Positions 28,363 to 41,276 of a stretch of DNA of 64,000 bases are shown here, one piece after another; the first letter of the stretch is position 1, and each line of letters starts with the position of its first letter. Made by a program: the position numbers and the translations under genes. The stretch comes from Pseudooceanicola onchidii (GTDB lineage: Bacteria; Pseudomonadota; Alphaproteobacteria; Rhodobacterales; Rhodobacteraceae): assembly GCF_004959925.1 (NCBI RefSeq), contig NZ_SPUW01000001.1, positions 496,001 through 560,000 of the forward strand, given 5' to 3'. Below the pieces are notes generated by a model, which had not been told where the DNA came from, made no database searches, and saw nothing but the letters and a program-made list of their open reading frames with translations.

Positions 28363-29091
28363 TCAGGCCGTGATCTTGGCCGTCACGGCGTGATGGAACA
28401 GCCGCTCTTCCAGGTCCTCCAGCGTGGCGCTATCGGGGTCAGGATCGTCCCCCAGATCAAGCCGCCACGTGCCGTTGTCACCTTCGGCCAGCCACCATTG
28501 CCCCGCGTAGATCCGCAGAACCGTCCCGGCCGGCAGGTCGATGTCGTTGGTGCGCGTGCGCGACCGGAATTCGGCAACTGTCATCACCTCTGCCGTGCGG
28601 CGGAACGCCTCGAGCGCATTGGCCGGGCGCGGTTCCCGAGCCGGGGCAGGGGGCGGGGCCATGAAGGGCCCCTCGATCTCGTCGTCGCCCATGGACGGAA
28701 ACAGACCGGCGCCGAAGCTCATGATCTCGGACACGGCATAGCCCAGAAGCAGACGGTGACGCGCGGGCGGGTCCAGATCGCGCCAGCCGGGACCGGGGGC
28801 GTCCTTGTCGCGCAGATAGTCGAAGTGCAGGGGCGCCAGCCCGTCGCCGTCGATGCCAAGGATGTCCTGAACCTGACGGCAGGCCACGTCGAGGTCATCT
28901 GTATGGCAAGCCGCAACGATGGCACCGCGCAGGTCGGCGGGTGGCGCCGCAGCGGCGCGTCGTCGTGGTGCGCCGGTTGCCTGATCGGGGTCTCGCCCGG
29001 TGACGGCCCTTGGGCCTTTTTCGCGTGGTGCCTGAAGTGTCTGGACAGCTTTTTCTAGCAGTCCGGTGCCGATTGTCGGCCAAACCGTCAT
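28363..29091 (-). CDS. Hypothetical protein, soluble, unknown family
   Basis: 242 residues from ATG 29091, which follows GGGGGA; an in-frame ATG eight codons upstream (29115) is also possible. I do not recognise a family. The N-terminal quarter is low in complexity (Arg/Ala/Pro-rich); the centre has ADLRGAIVAACHTDDLDVACRQVQDILGI with helical character, and the C-terminal part contains AGTVLRIYAGQWWLAEGDNGTWRLDLGDD, which looks like beta-strands. No signal peptide or membrane span. Converges on potD. Confidence 0.72.
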   Translation of the reverse strand: MTVWPTIGTGLLEKAVQTLQAPREKGPRAVTGRDPDQATGAPRRRAAAAPPADLRGAIVAACHTDDLDVACRQVQDILGIDGDGLAPLHFDYLRDKDAPGPGWRDLDPPARHRLLLGYAVSEIMSFGAGLFPSMGDDEIEGPFMAPPPAPAREPRPANALEAFRRTAEVMTVAEFRSRTRTNDIDLPAGTVLRIYAGQWWLAEGDNGTWRLDLGDDPDPDSATLEDLEERLFHHAVTAKITA

Positions 29092-29628
29092 GTCTGATCC
29101 CCCAAAATCAGTCATCTCGGTCCCTGCGAATGAAACCTGCGGGCGGGCTGTCCATCCCTCGGCAGCGGCCCGGACTTCAGGTCTTCGGTGTTCAGCAGAT
29201 CGTCTTGCGGCTACGGCGCAGGAACAGAAAAATACTGGTATAACAAAAGAGTAGTTCTATCTTCTTCCTCGTTTTCAACAGGCGCAACCCTGCCGCATGT
29301 CGTGAATTCGCACGGTCCGCTGCCAGTCAATTCGCAAGCGTACCGCCGGGCCGCAGGATATCGTGCGGCCGGAAACAGGTCCGTTCAATGCCTTAAGGTT
29401 AACGTACGGTAAAAACTCGATTCTCGCCATAGCAAAGACGCGTGAAAGCGTCAGGCCCCGTCGCTTTGCACGTATCGGTGCAGTCTCTCGGCGTGGGTGC
29501 GCGCCCTGCGATTGTGCACCGGATGGCGCTCCCCCTGCCGCCTATGCGTCGCCGAGATTCCGGGTCGCAATCCCGTGACCTGATCAACGGGCTTTACAAC
29601 TATCGACTTTCAAACATACGTTTCAAAC
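29092..29628. other. 537-base non-coding divergent gap, AT-richer
   Basis: No convincing gene is seen on either strand. Base composition drops to A/T-rich around 29220-29275 (AAAATACTGG, TATAACAAAAGAG), unlike the flanking genes. The gap must hold promoters for the hypothetical gene on the minus strand and the TetR gene on the plus strand. The last 21 bases contain the direct repeat listed separately. Confidence 0.6.
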
Positions 29629-29630
29629 AT
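29608..29630. promoter_or_regulatory. Tandem direct repeat at the TetR start, possible operator
   Basis: TTTCAAACAT occurs at 29608-29617 and again at 29621-29630, spaced 13 bases apart and running into the TetR start codon. The centre GTTTCAAAC is itself a short palindrome. The position suits an autoregulatory site. No ribosome-binding site is visible before this ATG, so the transcript may be leaderless. Confidence 0.4.
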
Positions 29631-30306
29631 GCGCTTGAATGATTCTGACAAAAGCTCTTCTGCAACCCGTGGCGCCATCCGCGCCGTGGCCGAGGAAATG
29701 TATGCCGAGAACGGAATCGACGGCGTGACGACCCGCGCACTGGCCGAACGGGCGGGCGTGAATATGGCTGCGGTGAACTATCACTACGGCAACAAGGACA
29801 ACCTCACGATGGCGGTCTTCCGCGACGTGGCGCATCGCACGGTCCAGCGCAGGTTGAAGAACCTTGCCCGGATTGACGCCACGGCGCAGGCCGAGGGCCG
29901 CGAACCCACGCTGCCCGAGATCGTCGAGGCCTTCGTCGACGCCTATGTCAACGAAGATACGCCGCGCACCGGGGTGCTTCTGGCGCATCTGGTGCTGCAA
30001 CACCGCGTGCGGCCAAGCGCATGGACCCGCGCCATCGTCCGGGAAGAACTGGACGATTTCGCGATCACCTACATGGGGTTCATGCGCCGTGCCGCACCGC
30101 ATCTGACCGAACCCGAGATCCACTGGCGCTATCACCTGATGGTCGGCGCCGTGATGATGAGCCTGTCGGACCAGGCGCGCGACGGACGGATGGCCAACCT
30201 GTCGAAAGGGCTGGTCCATCCCGAGGACCGTCGTGAATTCAAGGACCAACTGGTTGCCTTCCTGGTCGACAGCCTCGGCCATCGGCGGGCACCCGGGGGG
30301 GGATGA
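29629..30306 (+). CDS. TetR-family transcriptional regulator
   Basis: 225 residues. The N-terminal helix-turn-helix is clear: IRAVAEEMYAENGIDGVTTRALAERAGVNMAAVNYHYGNKDNL (about 16-58), with the late YHYGNKDNL typical of TetR. The C-terminal ligand domain has no recognisable ligand class, although HLVLQHRVRPSAWTRAI resembles the CerR/YbiH-like branch. It lies 79 bases before the TRAP transporter genes on the same strand and is the natural candidate regulator for them. Confidence 0.9.
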   Translation: MRLNDSDKSSSATRGAIRAVAEEMYAENGIDGVTTRALAERAGVNMAAVNYHYGNKDNLTMAVFRDVAHRTVQRRLKNLARIDATAQAEGREPTLPEIVEAFVDAYVNEDTPRTGVLLAHLVLQHRVRPSAWTRAIVREELDDFAITYMGFMRRAAPHLTEPEIHWRYHLMVGAVMMSLSDQARDGRMANLSKGLVHPEDRREFKDQLVAFLVDSLGHRRAPGGG

Positions 30307-30385
30307 TCACAAGGCTGCCCTGAAGGAGACAAGGCGGCAAAGGCGGCCGGACAACCGGCCAAGCATACCTCAGGGAGGAGGACAC

Positions 30386-31444
30386 ATGACCAAGTACACC
30401 ACGACCGCCCTTGCGGGCGCACTGCTTCTTTGCGCGGGCCTGCCCGCCACGGCAGAGACCTGGAATTTCACCGTGATCGCGGGCCACCCGCCGCTGACCA
30501 AGGGCGTCTCGGCCATTTCGACCCATTTCGTGCCCGAAGTCAGCCGTCGCGTGGCCGAACTGGGCCACACGATCAACTGGACCGAGGCCTATGCCGGCGC
30601 CGTCGCCCCGCCGACCGGCGTGCTTGAGGCCGTGGAAAGCGGTGTCGCGGAATTCGGCTATGTGCCGCAGCTGTTCGAAGGCGACAAGCTGCCGCTGGAC
30701 CAGATCACCTATATCACCCCCTTCGGCTCGGCCGACCTGATCAAGGTGATGGGCGTGATCGACAAGCTGTATGCCGAGATCCCGGCGATGGATCAGGCCT
30801 GGGCCGACAATGGCCAGAAGGTGCTGGCCCCCGTCGGCATCGACACCTACCACTTCGTCACCAAGTTCCCGATCGAGAAGGTCGAGGATCTGAACGGGCA
30901 CAAGATCGGCACCGCCGGTCTGGCGCTCAACTGGCTCAAGGGGGTGGACGCAACGCCGGTGGCGGGCGCATTGCCGGATTTCTACAACTCGATGTCGACG
31001 GGCCTTTACGACGGGATCATGACCTTTGAATCGGTCGTGGCGCCCTACAAGTTCTACGAGGTCGCGCCGTATATCACCAAGATCAACTTCGGCGCGCAGT
31101 ATGCCTCGGCGCTGACGGTGAACCTGGATACCTGGAATTCGCTGCCCGAGGACGTGCAGCAGATCATCCAGGAGGTCGCGGACGAATATCGTGACATCGC
31201 GGCTGAATCCTATCGCGAGGGCGGCGAGGCCTCGCTGGCCAAGGCGGTCGAAGGGGGCGCGAAAGTCAGCGAACTGTCGGACGAACAGCGCGCGGCCTAT
31301 GCGGCCAAGCTGCCCAACATTGCCCGCGAATGGGCGGCCAAACTGGACAGCGAAGGCAAGCCGGGCACCGAGGTGCTTGAGACCTACATGCGCCTGTCCA
31401 AGGAAGCCGGGATCAACCACGCACGGGACTGGGCAGCCGAGTGA
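30386..31444 (+). CDS. TRAP transporter substrate-binding protein (DctP family)
   Basis: 352 residues. A signal peptide (about 1-24, ending ATAET) precedes WNFTVIAGHPPLTKGV, and the DctP fold is seen in VEDLNGHKIGTAGLALNWLKGVDATPV and FYNSMSTGLYDGIMTFESVVAPYKFYE. TRAP binding proteins deliver organic acids to DctQM. ATG 30386 follows GGGAGGAGGA. The stop overlaps the DctQ start (GTGA). The ligand is not evident; breakdown genes downstream suggest an organic acid that yields a hydrolysable diketone or similar. Confidence 0.92.
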   Translation: MTKYTTTALAGALLLCAGLPATAETWNFTVIAGHPPLTKGVSAISTHFVPEVSRRVAELGHTINWTEAYAGAVAPPTGVLEAVESGVAEFGYVPQLFEGDKLPLDQITYITPFGSADLIKVMGVIDKLYAEIPAMDQAWADNGQKVLAPVGIDTYHFVTKFPIEKVEDLNGHKIGTAGLALNWLKGVDATPVAGALPDFYNSMSTGLYDGIMTFESVVAPYKFYEVAPYITKINFGAQYASALTVNLDTWNSLPEDVQQIIQEVADEYRDIAAESYREGGEASLAKAVEGGAKVSELSDEQRAAYAAKLPNIAREWAAKLDSEGKPGTEVLETYMRLSKEAGINHARDWAAE

Positions 31445-32001
31445 CGGACGCGACCGACACGACACAGCCGCCCGGATTTCCGGGCGGCCCTGTGGCCCTG
31501 TGGCTGAACCGCGTGACGCTGGCGCTGGCGGCGATCGGCGGGATCGGGACCCTGGGCATCATGGCGATCATCAATGCCGACGTGATCGGGCGGGGCGCCT
31601 TCGGCACCCCCGTGCCCGCCACGGCCGAAATCGTCAGCGCCGCCATCGTGGCGATCGTTTTTCTGCAACTGCCCCAGGCGACCGCCGCAGGCCGCAACGT
31701 GCGATCCGACATGCTTCTGAACCGGCTGGGCCGCGATCACGGACGGGCGGGCTACATGCTGGATACCGTCCACCACGCGGTCGGCACGCTGATGCTGGGC
31801 ATCCTGATCTACTACGTCGCGCCGGGCATCCTCGAGTCGATCGAGGGCAATGAAACGGTCGGGCTTTATGGCATCTTCACCATGCCCCGCTGGCCCTTCG
31901 TGGTCTGCGTCCTGGCCGGCTGCATCCTGACGCTGGCGCAATACGCGATGCTGACGCTTGGGTTCGCGATCAAGGCTTTCGGACGGGAGGCTACGGCATG
32001 A
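31441..32001 (+). CDS. TRAP transporter small permease (DctQ family)
   Basis: 186 residues with four membrane spans: about 17-40, 60-77, 103-122 and 142-165. This is the small membrane subunit that pairs with DctM. It starts with GTG inside the stop of the binding protein gene and its stop overlaps the DctM start by ATGA, so the three subunits are translationally coupled. Confidence 0.9.
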   Translation: MTDATDTTQPPGFPGGPVALWLNRVTLALAAIGGIGTLGIMAIINADVIGRGAFGTPVPATAEIVSAAIVAIVFLQLPQATAAGRNVRSDMLLNRLGRDHGRAGYMLDTVHHAVGTLMLGILIYYVAPGILESIEGNETVGLYGIFTMPRWPFVVCVLAGCILTLAQYAMLTLGFAIKAFGREATA

Positions 32002-33302
32002 CCGGGGTTGAAATCGGCATCTGGTCGATCGTCGCGATCCTCGTGCTGATCCAGCTGGGGATGCATGTCGCCATCGCGCTGATGGCCGTGTCGTTCTTCG
32101 GGGTCTACCTCGTGAAGGGCAAGCTGGTGGTCGCAGGCGCGCTTCTGTCCCACGCCGCGCTGGACGGGGTCGAGCGCTATTCCTTCGGGGTCATCCCGCT
32201 TTTCGTACTGATGGGCGTGCTGGTCGGGGCCTGCGGGCTGGGTCGCGACGTGTTCGATGTGGCGGGCCAGATGTTCCGGCGGTTCCGGGGCGGCCTTGGC
32301 ATTGCCACGGTCTTTGCCAACGCGGTCTTCGCGGCCGTCAACGGCACCTCGATCGCCTCGGCGTCGGTCTTCACCAAGGTCGCGGTGCCCGAACTGATCC
32401 GCCAGGGCTACACGCCGCGCTTTTCCGTCGGTGTCGTCGCCGGGTCGTCGGTGCTGGGGATGCTGATCCCGCCGTCGCTTCTGCTGATCCTCTTCGGGAT
32501 CATCGCCGAGGTGTCGATCGGCGATCTCTTCACCGCCGGGATCGTGCCGGGCGTGATCCTGGCGCTGTTCTTCTGCGCCGCGATCCTGCTGATGGCCAAG
32601 TTCTTTCCGCGCTTCACCGGAAATCCCGGCGCGTCGGACCTGCCCGAGATGAGCCGGGGCACCATGATCCTGAAGTCCGCCCCGATCATCCTGCTGGTCG
32701 TGCTGGTCCTGGGTGGCATCTACGGCGGGTTCTTCACCCCGACCGAAGCGGGTGGCGTCGGCGCCCTGGGCGCGCTGGTTATCGCGATGATCAAGGGCCG
32801 TCTGGGCGGGCGCGAGATCTGGAACATCATGCTCGAGGTGGGGCAGGTCACGGCCTCGATCACCTTCCTGATCATCGCCGCGCACATGTATTCGCGCCTG
32901 CTGGCCCTGACCGGCCTGCCGAATGCGATGACCGGGCTGCTGGCCAGCTATGATCTGGGTCTCTACGGCGTGCTGGTCCTGTACCTGATCGCCATCGTCC
33001 TGCTGGGCACGATCCTCGACAGTTCTTCGATCCTGCTGATCCTGCTGCCGCTGATCCTGCCCGTGATCCAGCCCTTTGGCGTCGATCTGGTCTGGTTCGG
33101 TATCCTGACCATCATCGCGGTCGAGGTCGGCCTGCTGACCCCGCCACTGGGCGTCGCCTGTTTCGTCATCAAGGCGAACCTCGACGACAAGCGGATCACC
33201 CTGAATGACATCTTTGCCGGCGCGGCCCCCTTCGCGCTGATCATGGTCGTGCTCGTGGCGTTGATCGTCGCGATGCCCTGGCTGGCCATCGGCCTGCTTT
33301 AA
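31998..33302 (+). CDS. TRAP transporter large permease (DctM family)
   Basis: 434 residues, about twelve membrane spans. Family signatures include GTSIASASVFTKVAVPELIRQGY (about 114-136), SVLGMLIPPSLLLILFGI and FFTPTEAGGVGALGALV. It forms the sodium-coupled channel of the importer. The start is coupled to DctQ by ATGA. It is followed within 14 bases by the MBL hydrolase gene, preceded by CCGGAGG, which joins transport and catabolism in one operon. Confidence 0.93.
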   Translation: MTGVEIGIWSIVAILVLIQLGMHVAIALMAVSFFGVYLVKGKLVVAGALLSHAALDGVERYSFGVIPLFVLMGVLVGACGLGRDVFDVAGQMFRRFRGGLGIATVFANAVFAAVNGTSIASASVFTKVAVPELIRQGYTPRFSVGVVAGSSVLGMLIPPSLLLILFGIIAEVSIGDLFTAGIVPGVILALFFCAAILLMAKFFPRFTGNPGASDLPEMSRGTMILKSAPIILLVVLVLGGIYGGFFTPTEAGGVGALGALVIAMIKGRLGGREIWNIMLEVGQVTASITFLIIAAHMYSRLLALTGLPNAMTGLLASYDLGLYGVLVLYLIAIVLLGTILDSSSILLILLPLILPVIQPFGVDLVWFGILTIIAVEVGLLTPPLGVACFVIKANLDDKRITLNDIFAGAAPFALIMVVLVALIVAMPWLAIGLL

Positions 33303-33316
33303 CCGGAGGAAATCAC

Positions 33317-34306
33317 ATGTATTCCGATACGCACCGCGAGCTCGAAAATCTTGGCAACGGACTTTACGCCTGGGTTCAGGGCGACGGGTCCTGGGGGTGG
33401 AGCAACTCCGGCCTCATCGTCGGCGAAGACAACCAGACCGTCGTGATCGACACCCTGTTTACCGGGCGGCTGACGCAGGACATGCTGGAGGCCTATGCCC
33501 GTGCCGAACCGGCGGCCAAAACCGTCGACGTTCTGGTGAACACCCACCACAACGGCGACCACACCTTCGGCAACCACCTTGTCGGCGGCGCCCGCATCAT
33601 CGGGTCGGCCGAGTGTGTCGAGGAGATGGAGGAGCGCCCGGCCAGCTTCTTCAAGGCGGCCGCCGCCGATCCCAAGGCCTATGGCATCTTCGGGGAATTC
33701 CTGGATCACTACATGGGCAAGTTCGACTTTTCCGACATCGAACACGTCCCGCCGAACGAAACCTTCAAGGGGCACAAGACCCTCACCGTCGGCGGCCGCA
33801 CGATCGAACTGACGGAACTTGGCCCCGCGCACACCCGCGGCGACATCATCGTGCACGTGCCGGACGCCCGCGTCTGCTATACCGGCGATCTGGTCTTCCA
33901 CGGCGGGCATCCGATCATGTGGGCCGGGCCGGTCGGCAACTGGATCGCCGCCTGCGACCATATCCTCGGGCTCGACGTGGATGTGATCGTGCCGGGCCAC
34001 GGCCCCGTCAGCGACAAGAGCTGCGTAAAGGGTCTGCGCGACTACTTCACCCACATCCTGGCCGAGACGACCAAGTGCTACGAGGCCGGGCTGGGCTGGG
34101 AAGAGGCGGCCTTCGAGGTCGGCTATGCCAATTTCGACAGCTGGCTCGACCGGGAACGGGTGGTTGCCAACGTCGCCACGATCTACCGTGACCTGTCGGG
34201 CGGCAAGATCAACCCGGCGCAGGAAGACGTGCTGCGTCACATGATGCGCTATTCCGCCGGGGCCAAGTGCCCGCATGACGACGCCTGCAGCTGCGGCCAT
34301 CACTGA
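33317..34306 (+). CDS. MBL-fold metallo-hydrolase with variant metal site and Cys/His tail
   Basis: 329 residues. The metal motif reads H77-H-N79-G-D81-H82, so the second histidine of HxHxDH is asparagine, while later ligands look intact (GPAHTRGDI, YTGDLVF, VPGHGPV). The C-terminus ends CPHDDACSCGHH, a short tail with three Cys and three His that could bind a metal. Related proteins include glyoxalase II-type and quinoprotein-associated hydrolases. It lies between TRAP and GST genes; its stop overlaps the GST start (TGATG). Possibly a thioester or lactone hydrolase; function not established. Confidence 0.85.
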   Translation: MYSDTHRELENLGNGLYAWVQGDGSWGWSNSGLIVGEDNQTVVIDTLFTGRLTQDMLEAYARAEPAAKTVDVLVNTHHNGDHTFGNHLVGGARIIGSAECVEEMEERPASFFKAAAADPKAYGIFGEFLDHYMGKFDFSDIEHVPPNETFKGHKTLTVGGRTIELTELGPAHTRGDIIVHVPDARVCYTGDLVFHGGHPIMWAGPVGNWIAACDHILGLDVDVIVPGHGPVSDKSCVKGLRDYFTHILAETTKCYEAGLGWEEAAFEVGYANFDSWLDRERVVANVATIYRDLSGGKINPAQEDVLRHMMRYSAGAKCPHDDACSCGHH

Positions 34307-35049
34307 TGCTGGAACTGCTGAACAACCCGATCTCGACCTGTTCGCAGAAGGTCCGCCTTGTGCTGCATGAAAAGGGCATCGACTTTACTGACACCCGCAT
34401 CGATTTCCGCGCCAAGGAACACCTGACGCCCGAATACCTGGCGATCAACCCCGACGGGGTGGTGCCGTCGCTGCTGCATGACGGCCAGCCGATCCTCGAT
34501 AGTTCGGTCATCATGGAATACCTGGATGAGGTCTTTCCGGATGTTCCCCTGTCACCGCGCGATCCGGTCGGGCGGGCCAAGATGCGGAAATGGCTGCGCT
34601 TCATCGAAGAGGTGCCGACCGTCGCAATCCGTATCCCGTCCTTCAACCAGGTCTTCGTCCGTCACCGGGCCGACCTGAGCGACGCGGATCTGGAGGACGA
34701 CACCAACGCCCGCACCCTGCGCCGCACCTTCTATCGCGAGATGGGGCGCACCGGGTTTTCCGACGCCCGCCTGCAGGAAAGCTATGACCGCCTGCGCGAA
34801 ACCGTCACCCGGATGGACGATGCGCTGGCCGATCGCGACTGGCTGTGCGTGGATCTGACGCTTGCGGATTTCTGCGTCGTGCCGACCATCGACCGGATGC
34901 GCGACCTGGGCTTGTCCGAGGCCTGGTCCGACAAGCCCCACATGAAACGCTGGTGGGAGGCCATGCAGGCCCGCCCCGCCTATCGCGCGACCTACTATCC
35001 CGGCACGCGCGTCACCGACATCTACGACGAGATTGGAGAGCCCGCATGA
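34306..35049 (+). CDS. Glutathione S-transferase family protein
   Basis: 247 residues. The N-terminal thioredoxin fold begins LELLNNPISTCSQKVRLVLHEKGID, where Ser-Thr-Cys is the active-site region; PDGVVPSLL has the cis-proline and DSSVIMEYLDE the glutathione gamma-glutamyl contacts. The helical C-terminal domain spans about 90-230. Coupled by overlap to both neighbours (TGATG before, ATGA after). Next to an FAH-family hydrolase it may act as a cis-trans isomerase or glutathione-dependent lyase, as GST-zeta does with maleylacetoacetate; that link is inference. Confidence 0.9.
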   Translation: MLELLNNPISTCSQKVRLVLHEKGIDFTDTRIDFRAKEHLTPEYLAINPDGVVPSLLHDGQPILDSSVIMEYLDEVFPDVPLSPRDPVGRAKMRKWLRFIEEVPTVAIRIPSFNQVFVRHRADLSDADLEDDTNARTLRRTFYREMGRTGFSDARLQESYDRLRETVTRMDDALADRDWLCVDLTLADFCVVPTIDRMRDLGLSEAWSDKPHMKRWWEAMQARPAYRATYYPGTRVTDIYDEIGEPA

Positions 35050-35972
35050 AACTCGTGACATTCCAGAACGACACCGGGGCCGAGGCCATCGGCATCCTCG
35101 ACGGCGACCGGATCGCCCTGCTGGACGCCGCCGCCAACCCCGCCTTCGGATCGATGCTGGCGCTGATCCACGGCGGGGACGAGGCGCTTGAGGCCGCGCG
35201 CGCGGCGCAGGCCACGGCCACCAAGCTGGACCTCGGATCGGTCCGCCTGCGCGCCCCGGTGCCCGAGCCGGTGCAGATGCGCGACAGCCTGACCTTCGAG
35301 ATGCACCTGCGCAACGCGCGCTCGACCATGTCCAAGCTGACCCCCGGCGTGCCGGATCTTGAACCGCAGGACGTGGCCCTGCCGCAGGTCTGGTACGATC
35401 AGCCGATCTACTACAAGGGCAACCGGTTCTCGGTCTCGGGCCCCGAGGACCAGATCCTCTGGCCGACCGGGGAAACCCGGCTGGATTACGAGCTTGAGCT
35501 GGGCATGATCACCGGCAAGGGCGGCCAGGACATCCGCGAAGCCGACGGGCAGGACCATGTCTTCGGCTTCCTGATCTTCAACGATTTCTCGGCCCGCGAT
35601 CACCAGATGCTCGAAATGGCCGGGGGTCTGGGCCCGGCGAAGGGCAAGGACTGGAAGACCGCCAACGCCATGGGCCCCTGCCTTGTCACCAAGGACGAGA
35701 TCGGCGACGGCTCGGGGCTCGAGATGATCGCGCGCATCAACGGCGAGGAATGGAGTCGGGGCAATTCGTCCTCAATGCACCATTCGTTCGGCCGTATCCT
35801 GGAACACGTCAGCCGCGACGAGGAAGTGCGCGCGGGCGAATTCTTCGGCTCGGGCACGGTCGGCGGCGGCTGCGGGCTTGAGCTGAACAAGTACCTGTCG
35901 CCCGGCGACGTGGTCGAGCTTGAGATCGAGGGCATCGGCATCCTGCGCAACACCGTCGGTCCGCGCCAGTAG
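35046..35972 (+). CDS. Fumarylacetoacetate hydrolase (FAH) family protein
   Basis: 308 residues. The family's metal site is visible: LDYELELGMITGKGGQDI (about 141-158) with glutamates, then FGFLIFNDFSARDHQ and GPAKGKDWKTANAMGPCLVTKDEI. FAH proteins hydrolyse C-C bonds of acylpyruvates or hydrate and isomerise 2-oxo acids using a divalent metal. The C-terminal GSGTVGGGCGLELNKYLSPGDVVELEIEGIG is typical. It starts within the GST stop. Substrate unknown; the operon context suggests the last hydrolytic step of the imported compound's breakdown. Confidence 0.91.
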   Translation: MKLVTFQNDTGAEAIGILDGDRIALLDAAANPAFGSMLALIHGGDEALEAARAAQATATKLDLGSVRLRAPVPEPVQMRDSLTFEMHLRNARSTMSKLTPGVPDLEPQDVALPQVWYDQPIYYKGNRFSVSGPEDQILWPTGETRLDYELELGMITGKGGQDIREADGQDHVFGFLIFNDFSARDHQMLEMAGGLGPAKGKDWKTANAMGPCLVTKDEIGDGSGLEMIARINGEEWSRGNSSSMHHSFGRILEHVSRDEEVRAGEFFGSGTVGGGCGLELNKYLSPGDVVELEIEGIGILRNTVGPRQ

Positions 35973-36086
35973 GGGCAGGGCGGTCGACCCCCGGGTCGGC
36001 CGCGCATTCACCCGCCCTTGCGCGATGGCCCCGGGCGGGCCATCAAGGCGTCCTGCGCACAGGGCCGGACGCCCGGAAAGGCCGCC

Positions 36087-37061
36087 ATGAAAGTTCACAT
36101 CCTCGACGACTGGTTCGACACGCTGCGGGGGCTGCCCTGCTTTGATCTGCTGAAGGATCACGACGTCACGGTCTGGACCGACCACGAACCCGACGAGGCC
36201 AAGCTGGCCGCGCGGCTGGCGGACGCCGATTGCGTCGTGCTGTTTCGCGAACGCACAAAGGTGACGCGCACCCTGCTGGACCAGTTGCCAACGCTGCGTC
36301 TGATCTCGCAGCGCGGGGCCTATCCGCACGTCGATGTTGCCGCCTGTACCGACCACGGGGTTCTGCTGTGTTCCAACACCGGCGCGGACGGGGCGAACTA
36401 TGCCGCCGCCGAGCTGACCTTCGGGCTGATCCTGTCGGCCATGCGCCAGCTGCCGCAGCAGATGGCCAGCGCCAAGGCCGGGGGCTGGCAGATGGGTGTC
36501 GGGCGCACCCTGCGCGGTCGCACGCTCGGGCTCTATGGCTATGGCAAGATCGGGCGCGCGGTGGCCGACTATGCCCGGGCTTTCGGGATGAAGGTGCTCT
36601 GGTGGGCCTCTGACGCCGGGTTGGAGCGTGCCCGCGCCGATGGAGAGCCGGTGGCCGAGAGCCGCGAAGCCTTCTTTGCCGGATCCGATGTTGTGTCGCT
36701 TCACCTGCGCCTGACCGACACGACGCGCGGCATCGTCACGGGCGCGGACTTGGCGCAGATGTCACCCCGGTCGGTTCTGGTGAACACCTCGCGGGCCGGG
36801 CTGATCGCGCCGGGCGCCTTGTTGGCGGGGCTGAACGCCGGCCGCCCCGGCATGGCGGCCGTGGATGTCTTCGACACCGAACCGCTGACCGACGCGGCCG
36901 ACCCGCTGTTGTCGCACCCCAACCTGATCGCCACCCCGCACATCGGCTTTGTCACGGAAGACGAATTCGACAAGCAGTTCGCGGATATCTTCGACCAGGT
37001 GAACGCCTATGCGGCAGGCGCGCCGATCCACATGATCAACCCCGACGCCGCCGGGCAATGA
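36087..37061 (+). CDS. D-2-hydroxyacid dehydrogenase (NAD-dependent)
   Basis: 324 residues. The NAD-binding motif is GLYGYGKIGRAVADYARAFG (about 148-167). Catalytic residues of the family are recognisable: Arg in VNTSRAGLI, Glu in DVFDTEPL and His in ATPHIGFV. The enzyme class includes phosphoglycerate and hydroxypyruvate dehydrogenases. ATG 36087 follows GGAAAGG. It lies 114 bases after the FAH gene and its 3' end overlaps the opposing AbrB-type gene by 26 bases. Likely part of the same catabolic operon. Confidence 0.92.
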   Translation: MKVHILDDWFDTLRGLPCFDLLKDHDVTVWTDHEPDEAKLAARLADADCVVLFRERTKVTRTLLDQLPTLRLISQRGAYPHVDVAACTDHGVLLCSNTGADGANYAAAELTFGLILSAMRQLPQQMASAKAGGWQMGVGRTLRGRTLGLYGYGKIGRAVADYARAFGMKVLWWASDAGLERARADGEPVAESREAFFAGSDVVSLHLRLTDTTRGIVTGADLAQMSPRSVLVNTSRAGLIAPGALLAGLNAGRPGMAAVDVFDTEPLTDAADPLLSHPNLIATPHIGFVTEDEFDKQFADIFDQVNAYAAGAPIHMINPDAAGQ

Positions 37062-38091
37062 TCCCGGCCACCACCGGCGCGCCGACGATCACCAGAACGA
37101 TGCGCGTCAGGTGGTGGGTGATGACAAAGCCCAGATCGGCGCCTGTGACGATGGCCAGCACCGTCATCTCGGCCTGTCCGCCGGGGGCGAAGGCCATGAA
37201 GGCCGCCACCGGATCGCCCAGGCCAAGCGCGGTGACGACCCAGGCAAACCCCGCCGCCAGCACCGCCAGCACCAGCACATAGGCCACGCCGGCCGCGACC
37301 ACGCGCGTCAGCTCGGCCCAGGTCACGCCCAGGAACTGCACGCCGATGCCGCAGCCGATCAGGAACTGCGCTACCAGGATCGCCTCGGCCGGGGGGCGGA
37401 AGTGGACGATGCCCGACAGCGACAGCGCCGCCGTCACGATCATCGGCCCCAGGATCGCCGCCCCGAACAGCCCGACACGTTGGCCCCCCTTCCAGCCGAT
37501 GATGGCGGCCAGCGCCATGATGACCAGCTCGTGCCACGGCAGGTCTGATGCCGGGGCGCCGATCGGGTTCGACAGCGCGGCGCCGTAGAAATGCGTCAGG
37601 ATGAAGGGGGCCAGCGTCACGATGATCAGCACCCGCGTCGCGTGGATCAGCGACAGGGCGCGGGGGTCTCCTCCGGCCTCGGTGCCGAAGATGACCATGT
37701 CCTGCAGCCCGCCGGGCATCGCCGAATAATAGGCCGTGGGCGCGTCGAACCCCCAGAGCCTGCGGAAGAACGGCACGCCGACCAGCGCGATCAGCGCGAT
37801 GAAGACCGGCACCAGCGCCACCGACAGCGCCATGCGCGGCAGCTCGGCCACCACGTCGGGCGTGATCGACGCCCCGACCGCCACACCCAGGATGGTCCGC
37901 GCTGCGACCGACACTTCTCCGAACCCCTTGAGCGGCATGTGGGCCAGCGCGCCCGCCAGGCAGAAGGTCATCGGTCCGAAGAGGAACGGCAGCGGCAGTT
38001 CCAGCGCGGCGAAAAGCGCCGTACCCACGGCGGCCAGCAGGAAGGTCAGGGTCCGGCGGCCCGTGGCAGAGTGGAAGAAAGATGCGCGCAA
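37036..38091 (-). CDS. AbrB-family membrane protein (AbrB duplication domain)
   Basis: 351 residues, about ten hydrophobic spans arranged as two similar halves: LELPLPFLFGPMTFCLAGALAHMP in the first and the duplicated region starting GWKGGQRVGLFGAAILGPMIV in the second. These proteins are annotated AbrB or putative ammonia monooxygenase; their transport function is not proven. Start TTG 38091 is preferred because CAGGAGG sits five bases before it; two upstream ATGs (38139, 38118) lie in the shared control region. Divergent from the GntR-tcuAB genes, so it may be the membrane component of that system. Confidence 0.85.
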   Translation of the reverse strand: MRASFFHSATGRRTLTFLLAAVGTALFAALELPLPFLFGPMTFCLAGALAHMPLKGFGEVSVAARTILGVAVGASITPDVVAELPRMALSVALVPVFIALIALVGVPFFRRLWGFDAPTAYYSAMPGGLQDMVIFGTEAGGDPRALSLIHATRVLIIVTLAPFILTHFYGAALSNPIGAPASDLPWHELVIMALAAIIGWKGGQRVGLFGAAILGPMIVTAALSLSGIVHFRPPAEAILVAQFLIGCGIGVQFLGVTWAELTRVVAAGVAYVLVLAVLAAGFAWVVTALGLGDPVAAFMAFAPGGQAEMTVLAIVTGADLGFVITHHLTRIVLVIVGAPVVAGIIARRRRG

Positions 38092-38128
38092 ACGGGCCTC
38101 CTGCCTGTCTTGACGCATTCTGTGTACG

Positions 38129-38150
38129 CTTGTACTCATTTGGATACAAG
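38129..38150. promoter_or_regulatory. Inverted repeat in the GntR/AbrB divergent region, probable operator
   Basis: CTTGTA and TACAAG form a perfect six-base inverted repeat with a ten-base spacer, in the 77-base gap between the two divergent genes. The half-sites resemble GntR/FadR-type TTGTA-TACAA operators. A direct repeat of the type TTGTAC / TGTACG lies just upstream. Regulation of both directions by the GntR protein is likely but inferred. Confidence 0.6.
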
Positions 38151-38168
38151 ATGGATGCGGAGGAGCAT

Positions 38169-38852
38169 ATGGCCATCGACGACGACAGCACCCCGCAGGG
38201 CAACGCGGCCTATGCGCGCCTGCTGGCCGAGCTGCGCGAAGGGCGGTTGAACCCCGGGGACCGGTTGCGGGAAACCGACCTGGCCGACCGTCTGGGCGTG
38301 TCGCGCACACCCGTCCGCGAGGCGATACGCCAGCTCGAGGCGGACGGCATCGTCACCCATGTGCCGCGTCAGGGCGCCAGCATCCGCACGTTGGATTACG
38401 CCGAGGTGATGGAGCTTTACGAGATGCGCGCCGTGCTGGAGGGCACCGCCGCCCGGCTTGCGGCCCGCGCCGCATCGGATATCGAGCTTGAAGAGCTTTA
38501 TGACATGAACCGGCAGCTTGCGGCCCTTGGCAATGTGCCAGAGGCCTTCGTCCTGAACCGGCAGCTTCACGCGGCCCTGCTGGACGCGGCCAAGAACCGC
38601 TTTCTGACCCGGTCGATCCATTCGCTGCAGAAGGCGATGATGATCCTTGGCCCCACCACGCTGACCCAGCCCGACCGTGCCGAACGGGCGGTCGAGGAGC
38701 ATCGCGCCGTGCTGGACGCCATCCGTGCCCGCAACGGCGAAGAGGCCGAGGCCGCGATGCGGGCGCATATCGAGGCCGCGCAGCGTGTCCGGGTCCGCGC
38801 CCTGCGGACCCGCGCCGAACCGGCCGCCAGCTTTGACGGAGACCTGCTGTGA
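38169..38852 (+). CDS. GntR-family transcriptional regulator (FCD domain)
   Basis: 227 residues. The winged helix-turn-helix spans about residues 8-70 with RETDLADRLGVSRTPVREAIRQLEADGIV, and the FCD ligand-binding domain covers about 75-210. ATG 38169 is chosen because GCGGAGGAG lies just before it; ATG 38151 is in frame but overlaps the operator edge. The stop overlaps the tcuA start (GTGA). It is placed to regulate tcuA-tcuB and the divergent membrane gene; in Salmonella this role is filled by a LysR protein, TcuR. Confidence 0.9.
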   Translation: MAIDDDSTPQGNAAYARLLAELREGRLNPGDRLRETDLADRLGVSRTPVREAIRQLEADGIVTHVPRQGASIRTLDYAEVMELYEMRAVLEGTAARLAARAASDIELEELYDMNRQLAALGNVPEAFVLNRQLHAALLDAAKNRFLTRSIHSLQKAMMILGPTTLTQPDRAERAVEEHRAVLDAIRARNGEEAEAAMRAHIEAAQRVRVRALRTRAEPAASFDGDLL

Positions 38853-40231
38853 CCGACCCCGACATCCTTGTCATCGGCGGCGGCAATGCCGCGCTTTGTG
38901 CGGCCATGACGGCGGCCGAGGCCGGGGCGCGGGTGCTGATCCTCGAAGCCGCGCCCAAGCCCTATCGTGGCGGCAATTCGCGCCACACCCGCAACTTTCG
39001 CTGCATGCATCACGGGCCACTTGGCCCTCTGGTCGACAGCTATACCGAGGATGAATACCTCGCCGACCTGATGAAGGTCACCGATGGCAAGACCGACGAG
39101 GCACTGGCGCGTCTGGCGATCCGCACCTCTGAGGAATGCCTGCCCTGGATGCAGGAGCGCGGCGTGCGCTTCCAGCCCTCGCTGTCGGGTACGCTGTCGC
39201 TGGCCCGCACCAACGCCTTCTTCCTGGGCGGGGGCAAGGGGCTGGTGAACGCCTATTACCGCACCGCCGAAAAGCTGGGCGTCGCGGTGGAATACGACGC
39301 GGCCGTCACGCATCTGGAACGCGAGGACGACCGGATTGTCCGGGTCGATTACACCAAGGACGGCACCACCCGCAGCCTGACGCCCCGCGCGGTGGTCGTC
39401 GCCTCGGGCGGGTTCCAGGCCGACACCGATTGGCTGGCCCGCGCCTGGGGACCTGCGGCAAAGAACTTCCTGATCCGGGGCACGCCCTACAATCGCGGGG
39501 TGGTGCTGGCGGACCTGCTGGATCAGGGTGTCGAACAGGTCGGCGATCCGACCCAGTGCCACGCGGTCGCGATCGACGGCCGCGCGCCCAAGTTCGACGG
39601 CGGCATCGTCACCCGGCTGGACTGCGTGCCATTCTCCATCGTCGTGAACAAGGATGCGCAGCGTTTCTATGACGAGGGCGAGGACGTCTGGCCCAAACGC
39701 TATGCGATCTGGGGCCGACTGGTCGCCGCGCAGCCCGACCAGGTGGGATATGTGATCATCGACGCCAAGTCGCTTGACCTGTTCATGCCCTCGGTCTTTC
39801 CGCCCATCAAGGCCGAGACCTTGCCCGAGCTTGCCGACAAGATGGGCCTGCCCGCCGAGGCGCTGGTGCAGACCGTCGAGAGGTTCAACGCGGCCTGCGG
39901 CGACACCTCGGGTTTTCATCCCACGGAACTGGACGGCGTCGCCACCACCGGGCTGACCCCGCCCAAGACCAACTGGGCGCGACCCATAACCGAACCGCCG
40001 TTCTATGGCTATTCGCTGCGCACCGGCGTGACCTTCACCTACCTCGGGCTCAAGGTCGACGCGCGCGCCCAGTGTTCCATCGGCAACCGCCCGGTCGCGA
40101 ACCTTTGGGCCGCGGGGGAAACCATGGCCGGATCGATCCTGGGGCAGGGGTACCTGGCCGGCTTCGGCATGACCATCGGCACCGTCTTCGGACGCATCGC
40201 GGGCCAGGAGGCCGCCGCCTATGCAAACTGA
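38849..40231 (+). CDS. tcuA: FAD-dependent tricarballylate dehydrogenase TcuA
   Basis: 460 residues. The N-terminal Rossmann motif is VIGGGNAALCAAMTAAEAGARVLILE (about 7-32), followed by the fumarate reductase/succinate dehydrogenase flavoprotein fold. PYRGGNSRHTRN and GQGYLAGFGMTIGTVFGRIAGQEAA are characteristic of TcuA. It oxidises tricarballylate to cis-aconitate, passing electrons to TcuB. Start is GTG, coupled to the GntR stop. The sequence overlaps tcuB by eleven bases. A CobZ-like role (cobalamin ring synthesis) is a less likely alternative, since the related R. capsulatus protein fuses TcuA- and TcuB-like parts. Confidence 0.9.
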   Translation: MTDPDILVIGGGNAALCAAMTAAEAGARVLILEAAPKPYRGGNSRHTRNFRCMHHGPLGPLVDSYTEDEYLADLMKVTDGKTDEALARLAIRTSEECLPWMQERGVRFQPSLSGTLSLARTNAFFLGGGKGLVNAYYRTAEKLGVAVEYDAAVTHLEREDDRIVRVDYTKDGTTRSLTPRAVVVASGGFQADTDWLARAWGPAAKNFLIRGTPYNRGVVLADLLDQGVEQVGDPTQCHAVAIDGRAPKFDGGIVTRLDCVPFSIVVNKDAQRFYDEGEDVWPKRYAIWGRLVAAQPDQVGYVIIDAKSLDLFMPSVFPPIKAETLPELADKMGLPAEALVQTVERFNAACGDTSGFHPTELDGVATTGLTPPKTNWARPITEPPFYGYSLRTGVTFTYLGLKVDARAQCSIGNRPVANLWAAGETMAGSILGQGYLAGFGMTIGTVFGRIAGQEAAAYAN

Positions 40232-41276
40232 CCTGCTGCAAGAGGCCCGCAGACAGGCCGAGATCTGCAATGCCTGCCGCTATTGCGAAGGCTATTGTTC
40301 GGTCTTTCCGGCCCTTCATGCCGAACGCGCGTTTTCGGACGGCAACCTGACCCAGCTGGCCAACCTCTGCCACAACTGCCGGGGCTGCTATTACGCCTGC
40401 CAGTACACCGCCCCGCATGAGTTTGACCTGAACCTGCCACAGGCGCTGGCCAATGTCCGGCAGGACAGCTGGGAAGACCTGGCCTTTCCCCGGGCTGCCG
40501 GGCGCGCCTTTCAGAAGAACGGCGTGCTGATCGCCGTGGCTACCGTGATCGGCTTTGCGCTGCTGTTCTGGGCGGCACGGGCGCTGGCCGCCTCGGGCGG
40601 CGACGGGTTCTATGCAGTGCTGTCGCACAACGCGATGGTGGCGATCTTCCTGCCGGCCTTCCTGTTCCCATTGCTCAGCATCGCGATCAGCCTGCGCCGC
40701 TACTGGCGCCGGATCGGGGCCGGGCCGCTGCGCCTGGCGCATTTGCACGCGGCACTGAAAAGCGCTTCGTCGATGCGCAATCTCAGCGGCGGTCACGGGG
40801 ATGGCTGCAATTTTGAGGACGAGGACCGCTTTACCCACGCCCGTCGTGCGGTGCACCAGGCGGTGATGTACGGGTTCCTGCTGTGTTTCGCATCGACCAG
40901 CGTGGCGACCGTGATGCACTATGTCTTCGACATGCCCGCGCCCTACGGCCTGCTGTCGCTGCCGAAACTGCTTGGCCTTTCGGGCGGCGTGCTGCTGACC
41001 CTCGGCTGTGTCGAGATGATCCGCCTCAAGCTGAAATCCGACATGGCCTTGGGGGCGCAGGGCGCCCGGGGCGGAGAGATGGGCTTTGTCGGATTGCTGG
41101 GGTTCGTGGGCTTTAGCGGGCTGCTGCTTTATGCCCTGGGACAGACCGCGGTCATGCCGACGCTGCTGGTGATCCACCTGGGCGCAGTGCTGGCCTTTTT
41201 CCTGCTGACCCCCTTCACCAAGATGGCGCACGGCTTCTATCGTCTCGCGGCGCTGGCCGCGGACGCGCAACGCTGA
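40221..41276 (+). CDS. tcuB: Tricarballylate utilisation 4Fe-4S membrane protein TcuB
   Basis: 351 residues. Two cysteine clusters near the N-terminus, CNACRYCEGYC (13-23) and CHNCRGCYYAC (50-60), should bind two 4Fe-4S centres. The C-terminal half contains about six hydrophobic spans with possible heme histidines, for example HNAMVAIFLPAF and SVATVMHYVFDM. TcuB reoxidises TcuA and passes electrons to the quinone pool. Its start lies inside tcuA. No MFS transporter gene (tcuC) follows; the next gene is an antiporter. Confidence 0.9.
   Translation: MQTDLLQEARRQAEICNACRYCEGYCSVFPALHAERAFSDGNLTQLANLCHNCRGCYYACQYTAPHEFDLNLPQALANVRQDSWEDLAFPRAAGRAFQKNGVLIAVATVIGFALLFWAARALAASGGDGFYAVLSHNAMVAIFLPAFLFPLLSIAISLRRYWRRIGAGPLRLAHLHAALKSASSMRNLSGGHGDGCNFEDEDRFTHARRAVHQAVMYGFLLCFASTSVATVMHYVFDMPAPYGLLSLPKLLGLSGGVLLTLGCVEMIRLKLKSDMALGAQGARGGEMGFVGLLGFVGFSGLLLYALGQTAVMPTLLVIHLGAVLAFFLLTPFTKMAHGFYRLAALAADAQR

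Follow-up and report, generated by a model that had tools for sequence, protein, structure and literature searches.

Import of organic acids by tripartite ATP-independent periplasmic (TRAP) transporters has been attributed to a single arginine of the solute-binding protein, although about 3% of the DctP proteins (199 of 6142) lack the equivalent of this residue, Arg147; of these, Csal_0678 binds ethanolamine and Tp0957 has a hydrophobic pocket (PMC4646407, in its available part). With regard to catabolism, the closest described systems belong to the maleylpyruvate/maleylacetoacetate branch, in which a glutathione S-transferase (GST) and a protein of the fumarylacetoacetate hydrolase (FAH) family occur near a TRAP transporter; the one beside NagK/NagL in Sagittula sp. 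MA-2 is of the TAXI type (PMC11705938, available part). The PF04199 family includes metal-dependent hydrolases whose substrates are formylkynurenine, esters and the cyclic amide isatin, and the trans-dienelactone hydrolase carries a variant of its motif (PMC5341072, available part); isatin hydrolase is also treated in PMC6117287 (available part). Here, we present an operon of Pseudooceanicola onchidii that encodes a TetR-family regulator, a TRAP transporter of the DctP type, a hydrolase of the metallo-β-lactamase (MBL) fold, a GST and an FAH-family protein. It lies in a stretch of 64,000 nucleotides, referred to as the window (C1:496001-560000, C1 being our label for contig NZ_SPUW01000001.1), of the 3.67 Mb genome.

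The operon consists of seven head-to-tail genes on the plus strand, between 29629 and 35972 (Table 1). The packing is tight and includes overlaps up to the FAH gene, as the initial annotation of this DNA had pointed out: four bases are shared at the DctP/DctQ, DctQ/DctM and GST/FAH junctions and one at MBL/GST, while gaps of 79 bp and 14 bp separate TetR from DctP and DctM from MBL, respectively. These junctions take into account that DctP and FAH probably begin at the ATGs of 30386 and 35046, downstream of the starts given in the mechanical list of open reading frames (ORFs). Every protein of 29629-37061 has a Pfam family above cut-off, and the module is built of known protein families, with the complete domain set of a DctP-type TRAP transporter (PF03480, PF04290 and PF06808). 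Compared with the maleylpyruvate/maleylacetoacetate branch, the operon differs in the type of its TRAP, in an extra metal hydrolase, in a GST that is optional and in the absence of a dioxygenase. The initial annotation had already noted the absence of a ring-cleaving dioxygenase, and there is none among the proteins of 29629-37061, the rest of the window and of the genome not having been searched for one. The models of the maleylacetoacetate branch are also far from being matched: the GST scores 69.4 bits against the maiA isomerase equivalog TIGR01262 (cut-off 171) and the FAH protein 45.4 bits against the fumarylacetoacetase equivalog TIGR01266 (cut-off 375). A literature search, with most subscription papers outside its coverage, returned no paper describing this operon set, which is not described in the available part of PMC4103551 either. 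The earlier suggestion of a possibly undescribed pathway is thus in keeping with the literature searched.

The TRAP, MBL and FAH genes form a conserved unit, of which the GST is an optional member. At E 1e-60, the MBL was detected in 12 of 295 genomes of the family, the own genome counted. DctM directly precedes it in all 12, and FAH follows on the same strand in eight (seven of the 11 others) and is found close by on the opposite strand in the remaining four (L101-L104, with MBL proteins 40-43% identical). These counts rest on tblastn, because gene calling by a simple codon score chose the wrong strand for L096 and L097. Only three of the 12 loci (the window, L094 and L100) have a GST gene in the MBL-FAH interval, and the sole GST match at E 1e-20 anywhere in the other nine genomes is a protein of 32% identity in G162. 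Further copies of this operon, from named or plasmid records, do contain the GST (L014, L015, L016, L017, L022 and L126), and in the FAH tree the GST-bearing L016 and the GST-free L096 are sisters (support 100/99). The close named relatives of the MBL are mostly Pseudooceanicola proteins, and the closest operons at named genome loci, among the matches listed, are those of Sulfitobacter sp. EhC04 and Pseudooceanicola. A broader MBL scan, confined to the best 80 of at least 517 relatives, draws in a far larger family of MBL proteins, and FAH or TRAP genes are nearby in only part of that set. The initial annotation had seen in the locus one catabolic-looking unit and had suggested a neighbourhood search for it, with absence from every other genome as a refuting result; the unit recurs in the 11 other family genomes that have this MBL, and the order MBL-GST-FAH does exist elsewhere. 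Among 50 loci, the gene clusters recurring in at least three were mostly antisense frames of the core genes (ABC ATPases, so named by eye, recur in nine loci), and none revealed the substrate.

A distinctive feature concerns the binding protein. Gly175 of the window DctP aligns with the arginine of the solved DctPs 4n6d, 3gyy/2vpn (TeaA) and 4nap/4pgn, and the equivalent of SiaP Arg147 is therefore missing. Forty-nine loci were examined for this position; tblastn (E 1e-15) detected a DctP in 39, of which 38 were scorable (19 of the MBL kind and 19 of the PF04199 cyclase kind presented below): glycine occurs in 22, alanine in nine, asparagine in five, serine and valine in one each, and arginine in none. 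As a control, 14 of the 15 other DctPs of the own genome carry the arginine and one a tyrosine. The import of an acid, as assumed in the initial annotation, is made doubtful by these figures, and an ordinary acid is an improbable substrate; a neutral or masked molecule (lactone, lactam, imide or ester) is favoured. Since the arginine is missing in both kinds of operon, a shared, atypical ligand is argued for. Csal_0678 and Tp0957 are described as sharing this loss, and phenylalanine is reported as the commonest substitute (PMC4646407, available part), whereas this group has mostly glycine, alanine or asparagine. The model of the DctP (predicted local distance difference test, pLDDT, 86.2) has as nearest folds DctPs for varied ligands, including ectoine and cinnamate/coumarate binders. 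Their identity ranges from 14 to 24% over the 50 listed rows, so that the ligand is not readable from these neighbours.

A further clue to the pathway comes from operons in which the MBL is replaced. In plasmid records of Thalassospira marina (pCSC3H3) and Pseudosulfitobacter pseudonitzschiae (pSMR1-1), the TRAP genes are followed by a cyclase-family protein (PF04199) and then FAH. The order DctP/DctQ/DctM/hydrolase/FAH, the related TRAP and FAH and the Arg-less DctP are shared with the window, from which these operons differ by the cyclase in place of the MBL and by the lack of a GST; in Thalassospira, unlike in the window, TetR is divergent. No described function was found for them either. 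FAH matches at E 1e-55 amount to 40, in 38 of the 295 genomes, and inspection of all their flanks gave MBL plus TRAP at 12, a cyclase at 23, neither at five (L170, L183, L185, L188, the last with an unrelated TRAP, and L192) and both at none. An adjacent related TRAP is present at 19 of the 23 cyclase loci. Identity to the window DctM is 48-60% at these 19 loci, and identity to the window DctP 39-46% at 18 of them (L169 has a fragment only), against 36% and 26% for the best-scoring paralogues of the own genome; judged by these identities, the TRAPs of both operon kinds are specific relatives. Mapped onto a tree of 59 FAH sequences, the three labels (MBL, cyclase and neither) show strong clustering, with 7 changes versus 23.8 in shuffles. 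With a cyclase in the MBL's place at FAH loci, the MBL most likely catalyses a hydrolysis of which enzymes of the isatin hydrolase type are also capable, prior to C-C cleavage by FAH. If both enzymes carry out the same step, the MBL would be an amide, ester or lactone hydrolase and not a glutathione thioesterase, because a GST stands between hydrolase and FAH at none of the 23 cyclase loci. The own genome also encodes a PF04199 cyclase (C1:124824-125585; L193:7322-8137), 76% identical to that of the Thalassospira operon and without FAH; its neighbours look like CoA-transferase genes and, in divergent orientation, an MFS gene, names that were given by eye and not by a library scan, like others so marked in this text.

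The enzymes themselves narrow down the chemistry to different degrees. The classical two-metal MBL motif is HxHxDH...H...D...H. In the window MBL it reads H77-x-N79-x-D81-H82...H172...D191...H228, with asparagine at the position of the second histidine; H77, D81, H82, H172, D191 and H228 are kept in all 91 MBL loci, and N79 is asparagine in 87 and aspartate in four. The AlphaFold2 model (pLDDT 91.6) has as nearest solved folds the uncharacterised 8d2z of Burkholderia cenocepacia and the chlorothalonil hydrolytic dehalogenase 6uxu, at 22-24% identity; the metal-motif residues are N-T-S-Y-H-G-D-H in 6uxu versus N-T-H-H-N-G-D-H in the window. At its C-terminus (residues 317-329; window 34265-34303) the MBL has a Cys/His-rich tail, KCPHDDACSCGHH, which is largely conserved in close relatives, has low model confidence at its end and is perhaps a metal site. 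A 46% identical MBL followed by a fumarylacetoacetase-like protein is encoded in Novosphingobium sp. EMRT-2 (L125), in a cluster that also holds a VOC dioxygenase, a flavin adenine dinucleotide (FAD) monooxygenase and a second FAH, which ties this kind of MBL to the making of FAH substrates. The fumarylacetoacetase-like protein scores 343.6 bits against TIGR01266, just under its cut-off, and the lid histidine and the ExE, D, R, Q and K positions of the window FAH, which we presume to be catalytic, align with it. This would fit C-C hydrolysis, and the FAH-family protein is a putative C-C hydrolase, with the FAA_hydrolase domain (PF01557) and 103 bits against the L-rhamnonate diketo hydrolase (LRA6 type) model NF053535, whose cut-off is 500. 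The GST has an S10-T11-C12-S13 stretch that is invariant over nine sequences; its best solved match is LigF (4xt0), yet it reaches only 28.2 bits against the beta-etherase model NF042997 (cut-off 440). The substrate was not revealed by comparisons with NCBIfam, Pfam and solved-structure sequences, nor by the fold searches with MBL and DctP.

On this basis, a module for import and hydrolysis can be proposed that TetR would control. The Arg-less TRAP would take up one small molecule, bound in a manner not usual for carboxylates, and the MBL would hydrolyse it in the cytoplasm. The molecule is most likely a lactone, lactam, imide or ester; its hydrolysis would then give a 1,3-dicarbonyl (acylpyruvate-like) acid, of which the FAH-family enzyme would split a C-C bond to leave two ordinary acids. 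Should the product contain a cis double bond, the optional GST may convert it to the trans form, in the manner of the maleylpyruvate and maleylacetoacetate isomerases. Cyclase-type hydrolases (PF04199) stand in for the MBL at roughly double the number of FAH loci in the family. For a TetR-controlled module of TRAP import, MBL or cyclase hydrolysis and FAH cleavage, taken as a whole, we see the chances as evenly balanced; the same reaction by both hydrolases, the ring opening, the C-C cleavage, the role of the GST and the TetR operator are presumed parts of it. More tentative, and to be read with some doubt, is the version of a widespread undescribed module for a non-carboxylate, probably a neutral unsaturated lactone, lactam or imide, taken up by the Arg-less TRAP, in which MBL and PF04199 enzymes would have replaced each other once or more for ring opening before FAH. 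If true, the Arg-less DctP class would gain a catabolic substrate. In this operon family the enzymes that follow the transporter give a hint of the chemistry, so that the cargo of Arg-less DctPs becomes directly testable on a few purified proteins; hydrolases now annotated only as MBL-fold or cyclase-family would thereby gain a function. The points most worth specialist attention are the Arg-less binding protein and the two unrelated hydrolases before the same FAH.

Several observations weigh against this proposal. The exchange of MBL and cyclase rests on shared partners, not on reaction, and the cyclase is only distantly like isatin hydrolase (E 3e-7) and scores 41.8 bits against an arylformamidase model with a cut-off of 223, so that ring opening is a guess within the hydrolase family. 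The modules are not always complete: no FAH was found beside the TRAP-MBL genes of L018 and L036, the TRAP-cyclase locus L195 is without FAH, and four cyclase loci (L165, L172, L180 and L187) are without a related TRAP, a 26% DctM match in L165 not being counted as such. In Pigmentiphaga (L040), which was placed in no group, both hydrolases lie about 3 kb apart. The own genome and four of the 11 other MBL genomes encode such cyclases outside the module, and exclusivity therefore holds at the FAH locus, not genome-wide. When only the MBL and cyclase rows of the FAH tree are considered, the best tree has two changes and a single exchange is not rejected (approximately unbiased, AU, test, p 0.114). 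The idea of a certain, repeated hydrolase exchange was consequently withdrawn. The DctM tree is also compatible with a single origin of either label; it covers 36 of the 59 loci, those with a short or weak DctM, including the window's own clipped locus, having been omitted. Finally, an Arg-less binding protein could hold an acid by other residues.

Other explanations account for part of the same evidence. Both hydrolases might act on an open-chain amide, formamide or ester, as arylformamidases do, with FAH cleaving the acylpyruvate that is freed. The Arg-less DctP is compatible with such a substrate, the cyclase gives a weak hit against the arylformamidase model, and PF04199 includes kynurenine formamidase and esterases (PMC5341072, available part); however, the similarity is weak and no gene of the operon obviously handles the released amine or alcohol, and we hold this route to be unlikely. 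In a lower aromatic pathway, the compound brought in by TRAP would be aromatic, enzymes from genes located elsewhere would hydroxylate and cleave its ring, and the cleavage product would pass to MBL or cyclase and to FAH. This would explain the extradiol-type VOC, FAD monooxygenase, Rieske and FAH genes near the hydrolase in L125, the VOC protein of L014 (290 bits to the BphC model, below the cut-off of 366), the similar gene neighbours seen by eye in L101 and L196 and the DctP fold neighbours solved with cinnamate and coumarate. No such gene is present in the window operon or in the clusters recurring in at least three of 50 loci, though, and aromatic acids would call for the arginine; this pathway is quite improbable. 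As a separate observation, L125 belongs to plasmid pABRDHK22, whose surroundings look aromatic, with Rieske, TonB receptor, VOC dioxygenase, FAD monooxygenase, FAH, TetR, MBL, fumarylacetoacetase-like, amidohydrolase and MFS genes.

The adjacency of GST and MBL in the window, together with the hydroxyacylglutathione hydrolases known within the MBL fold, could also indicate a glyoxalase-II-like thioesterase that hydrolyses a GST-made glutathione adduct. This is very improbable, given that the GST is absent from nine of the 12 family loci, which keep TRAP-MBL and FAH, as well as from L096, the tree sister of a GST-bearing locus, and that the MBL obtains 21.7 bits against a GloB cut-off of 200.8. 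The involvement of glutathione in the MBL step, suggested in the initial annotation, is for the same loss of the GST not supported, and a glutathione-dependent MBL was rejected as the principal explanation. The initial annotation had further envisaged a route in which an imported acid passes from the MBL to FAH and is finally reduced by the 2-hydroxyacid dehydrogenase encoded downstream. All these genes lie on the same strand with short spacing, but the acid-binding arginine is missing and the dehydrogenase goes with AbrB, GntR and Tcu genes, which makes the route hardly credible.

As regards this dehydrogenase, the gene set from TetR to FAH stands as first annotated, whereas its membership does not. 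It starts 114 bp past the end of FAH. An orthologue (E 1e-70) occurs in 61 of the 295 genomes, own included; apart from the own genome, both proteins co-occur only in G144 and G162, two of the 11 other MBL genomes, and there on different contigs. The 19 best loci were fetched from the 60 other genomes with an orthologue, and in 15 of them the AbrB-family gene of the window and/or TcuA, TcuB or GntR lie within 1.5 kb; the four without them are L110, L116, L120 and L123, of which L116 adjoins a 35% identical DctM. The dehydrogenase was found in none of 91 and none of 39 loci related to the operon. Downstream of it in the window, TcuA (NF006130) and TcuB (TIGR02484) score above cut-off, and the dehydrogenase belongs with these tricarballylate-type genes, outside the TRAP-MBL-FAH module. 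As it is a neighbour and not a member, a reductive last step is not supported and was rejected, and dropping the gene from the set spares a wrong pathway model. The region 36087-41276 forms a separate neighbourhood with the dehydrogenase, an AbrB-family membrane protein (37036-38310, minus strand), GntR, TcuA and TcuB.

Concerning regulation, the window contains a single copy of the palindrome AAAC-N4-GTTT, which begins 17 bases upstream of the TetR start; a first-order Markov model predicts 0.2 copies in 64 kb. It is a putative operator of TetR, which we take to resemble the PsrA box. The best NCBIfam hit of TetR is PsrA (NF053516), with 69.7 bits far under the cut-off of 300, and the regulator is therefore not PsrA itself. 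The palindrome is found near the TetR or DctP start in ten of 16 same-orientation MBL loci, own included (the others being L016, L018, L036, L094, L095 and L098), and in none of the four divergent MBL loci or the 30 loci of the cyclase type or other kinds.

Table 1. Features of the operon and its immediate surroundings, in window coordinates.
Feature	Position	Strand	Basis
Putative TetR operator, palindrome AAAC-N4-GTTT	29612..29623	none	Pattern search; function presumed
TetR-family regulator (TetR_N + TetR_C_30)	29629..30306	+	PF00440, PF17939 above cut-off
DctP-type TRAP solute-binding protein, residue 175 Gly	30386..31444	+	PF03480, NF037995 above cut-off
DctQ, TRAP small permease	31441..32001	+	PF04290 above cut-off
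DctM, TRAP large permease	31998..33302	+	PF06808, TIGR00786 above cut-off
MBL-fold hydrolase	33317..34306	+	PF00753
Glutathione S-transferase-like protein, optional member	34306..35049	+	GST_N and GST_C domains
FAH-family protein (putative C-C hydrolase)	35046..35972	+	PF01557, 171 bits vs cut-off 23.9
2-hydroxyacid dehydrogenase, neighbour outside module	36087..37061	+	Orthologue neighbourhoods

Some minor observations were made in the related loci and elsewhere in the window. An OsmC-like gene, named by eye, lies close to FAH in eight loci, seven of them of the cyclase type (L167:7085, L168:6874, L171:58, L173:6471, L182:6544, L185:5327, L186:2286 and L189:6312). In the operon of Pseudosulfitobacter DSM 107133 (L126:16636-17953), the annotated DctM is a short fragment next to a gap that carries no annotation. 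Two MBL-FAH pairs follow each other at L060:6850-12009, with a Bug-type binding protein (by eye) between them, ABC transporter genes before them and a UbiD-family gene at 786-2330. In the window itself, an ORF of 250 amino acids on the minus strand (28363-29115), of no family recognised by eye, is located beside polyamine-type ABC transporter genes.

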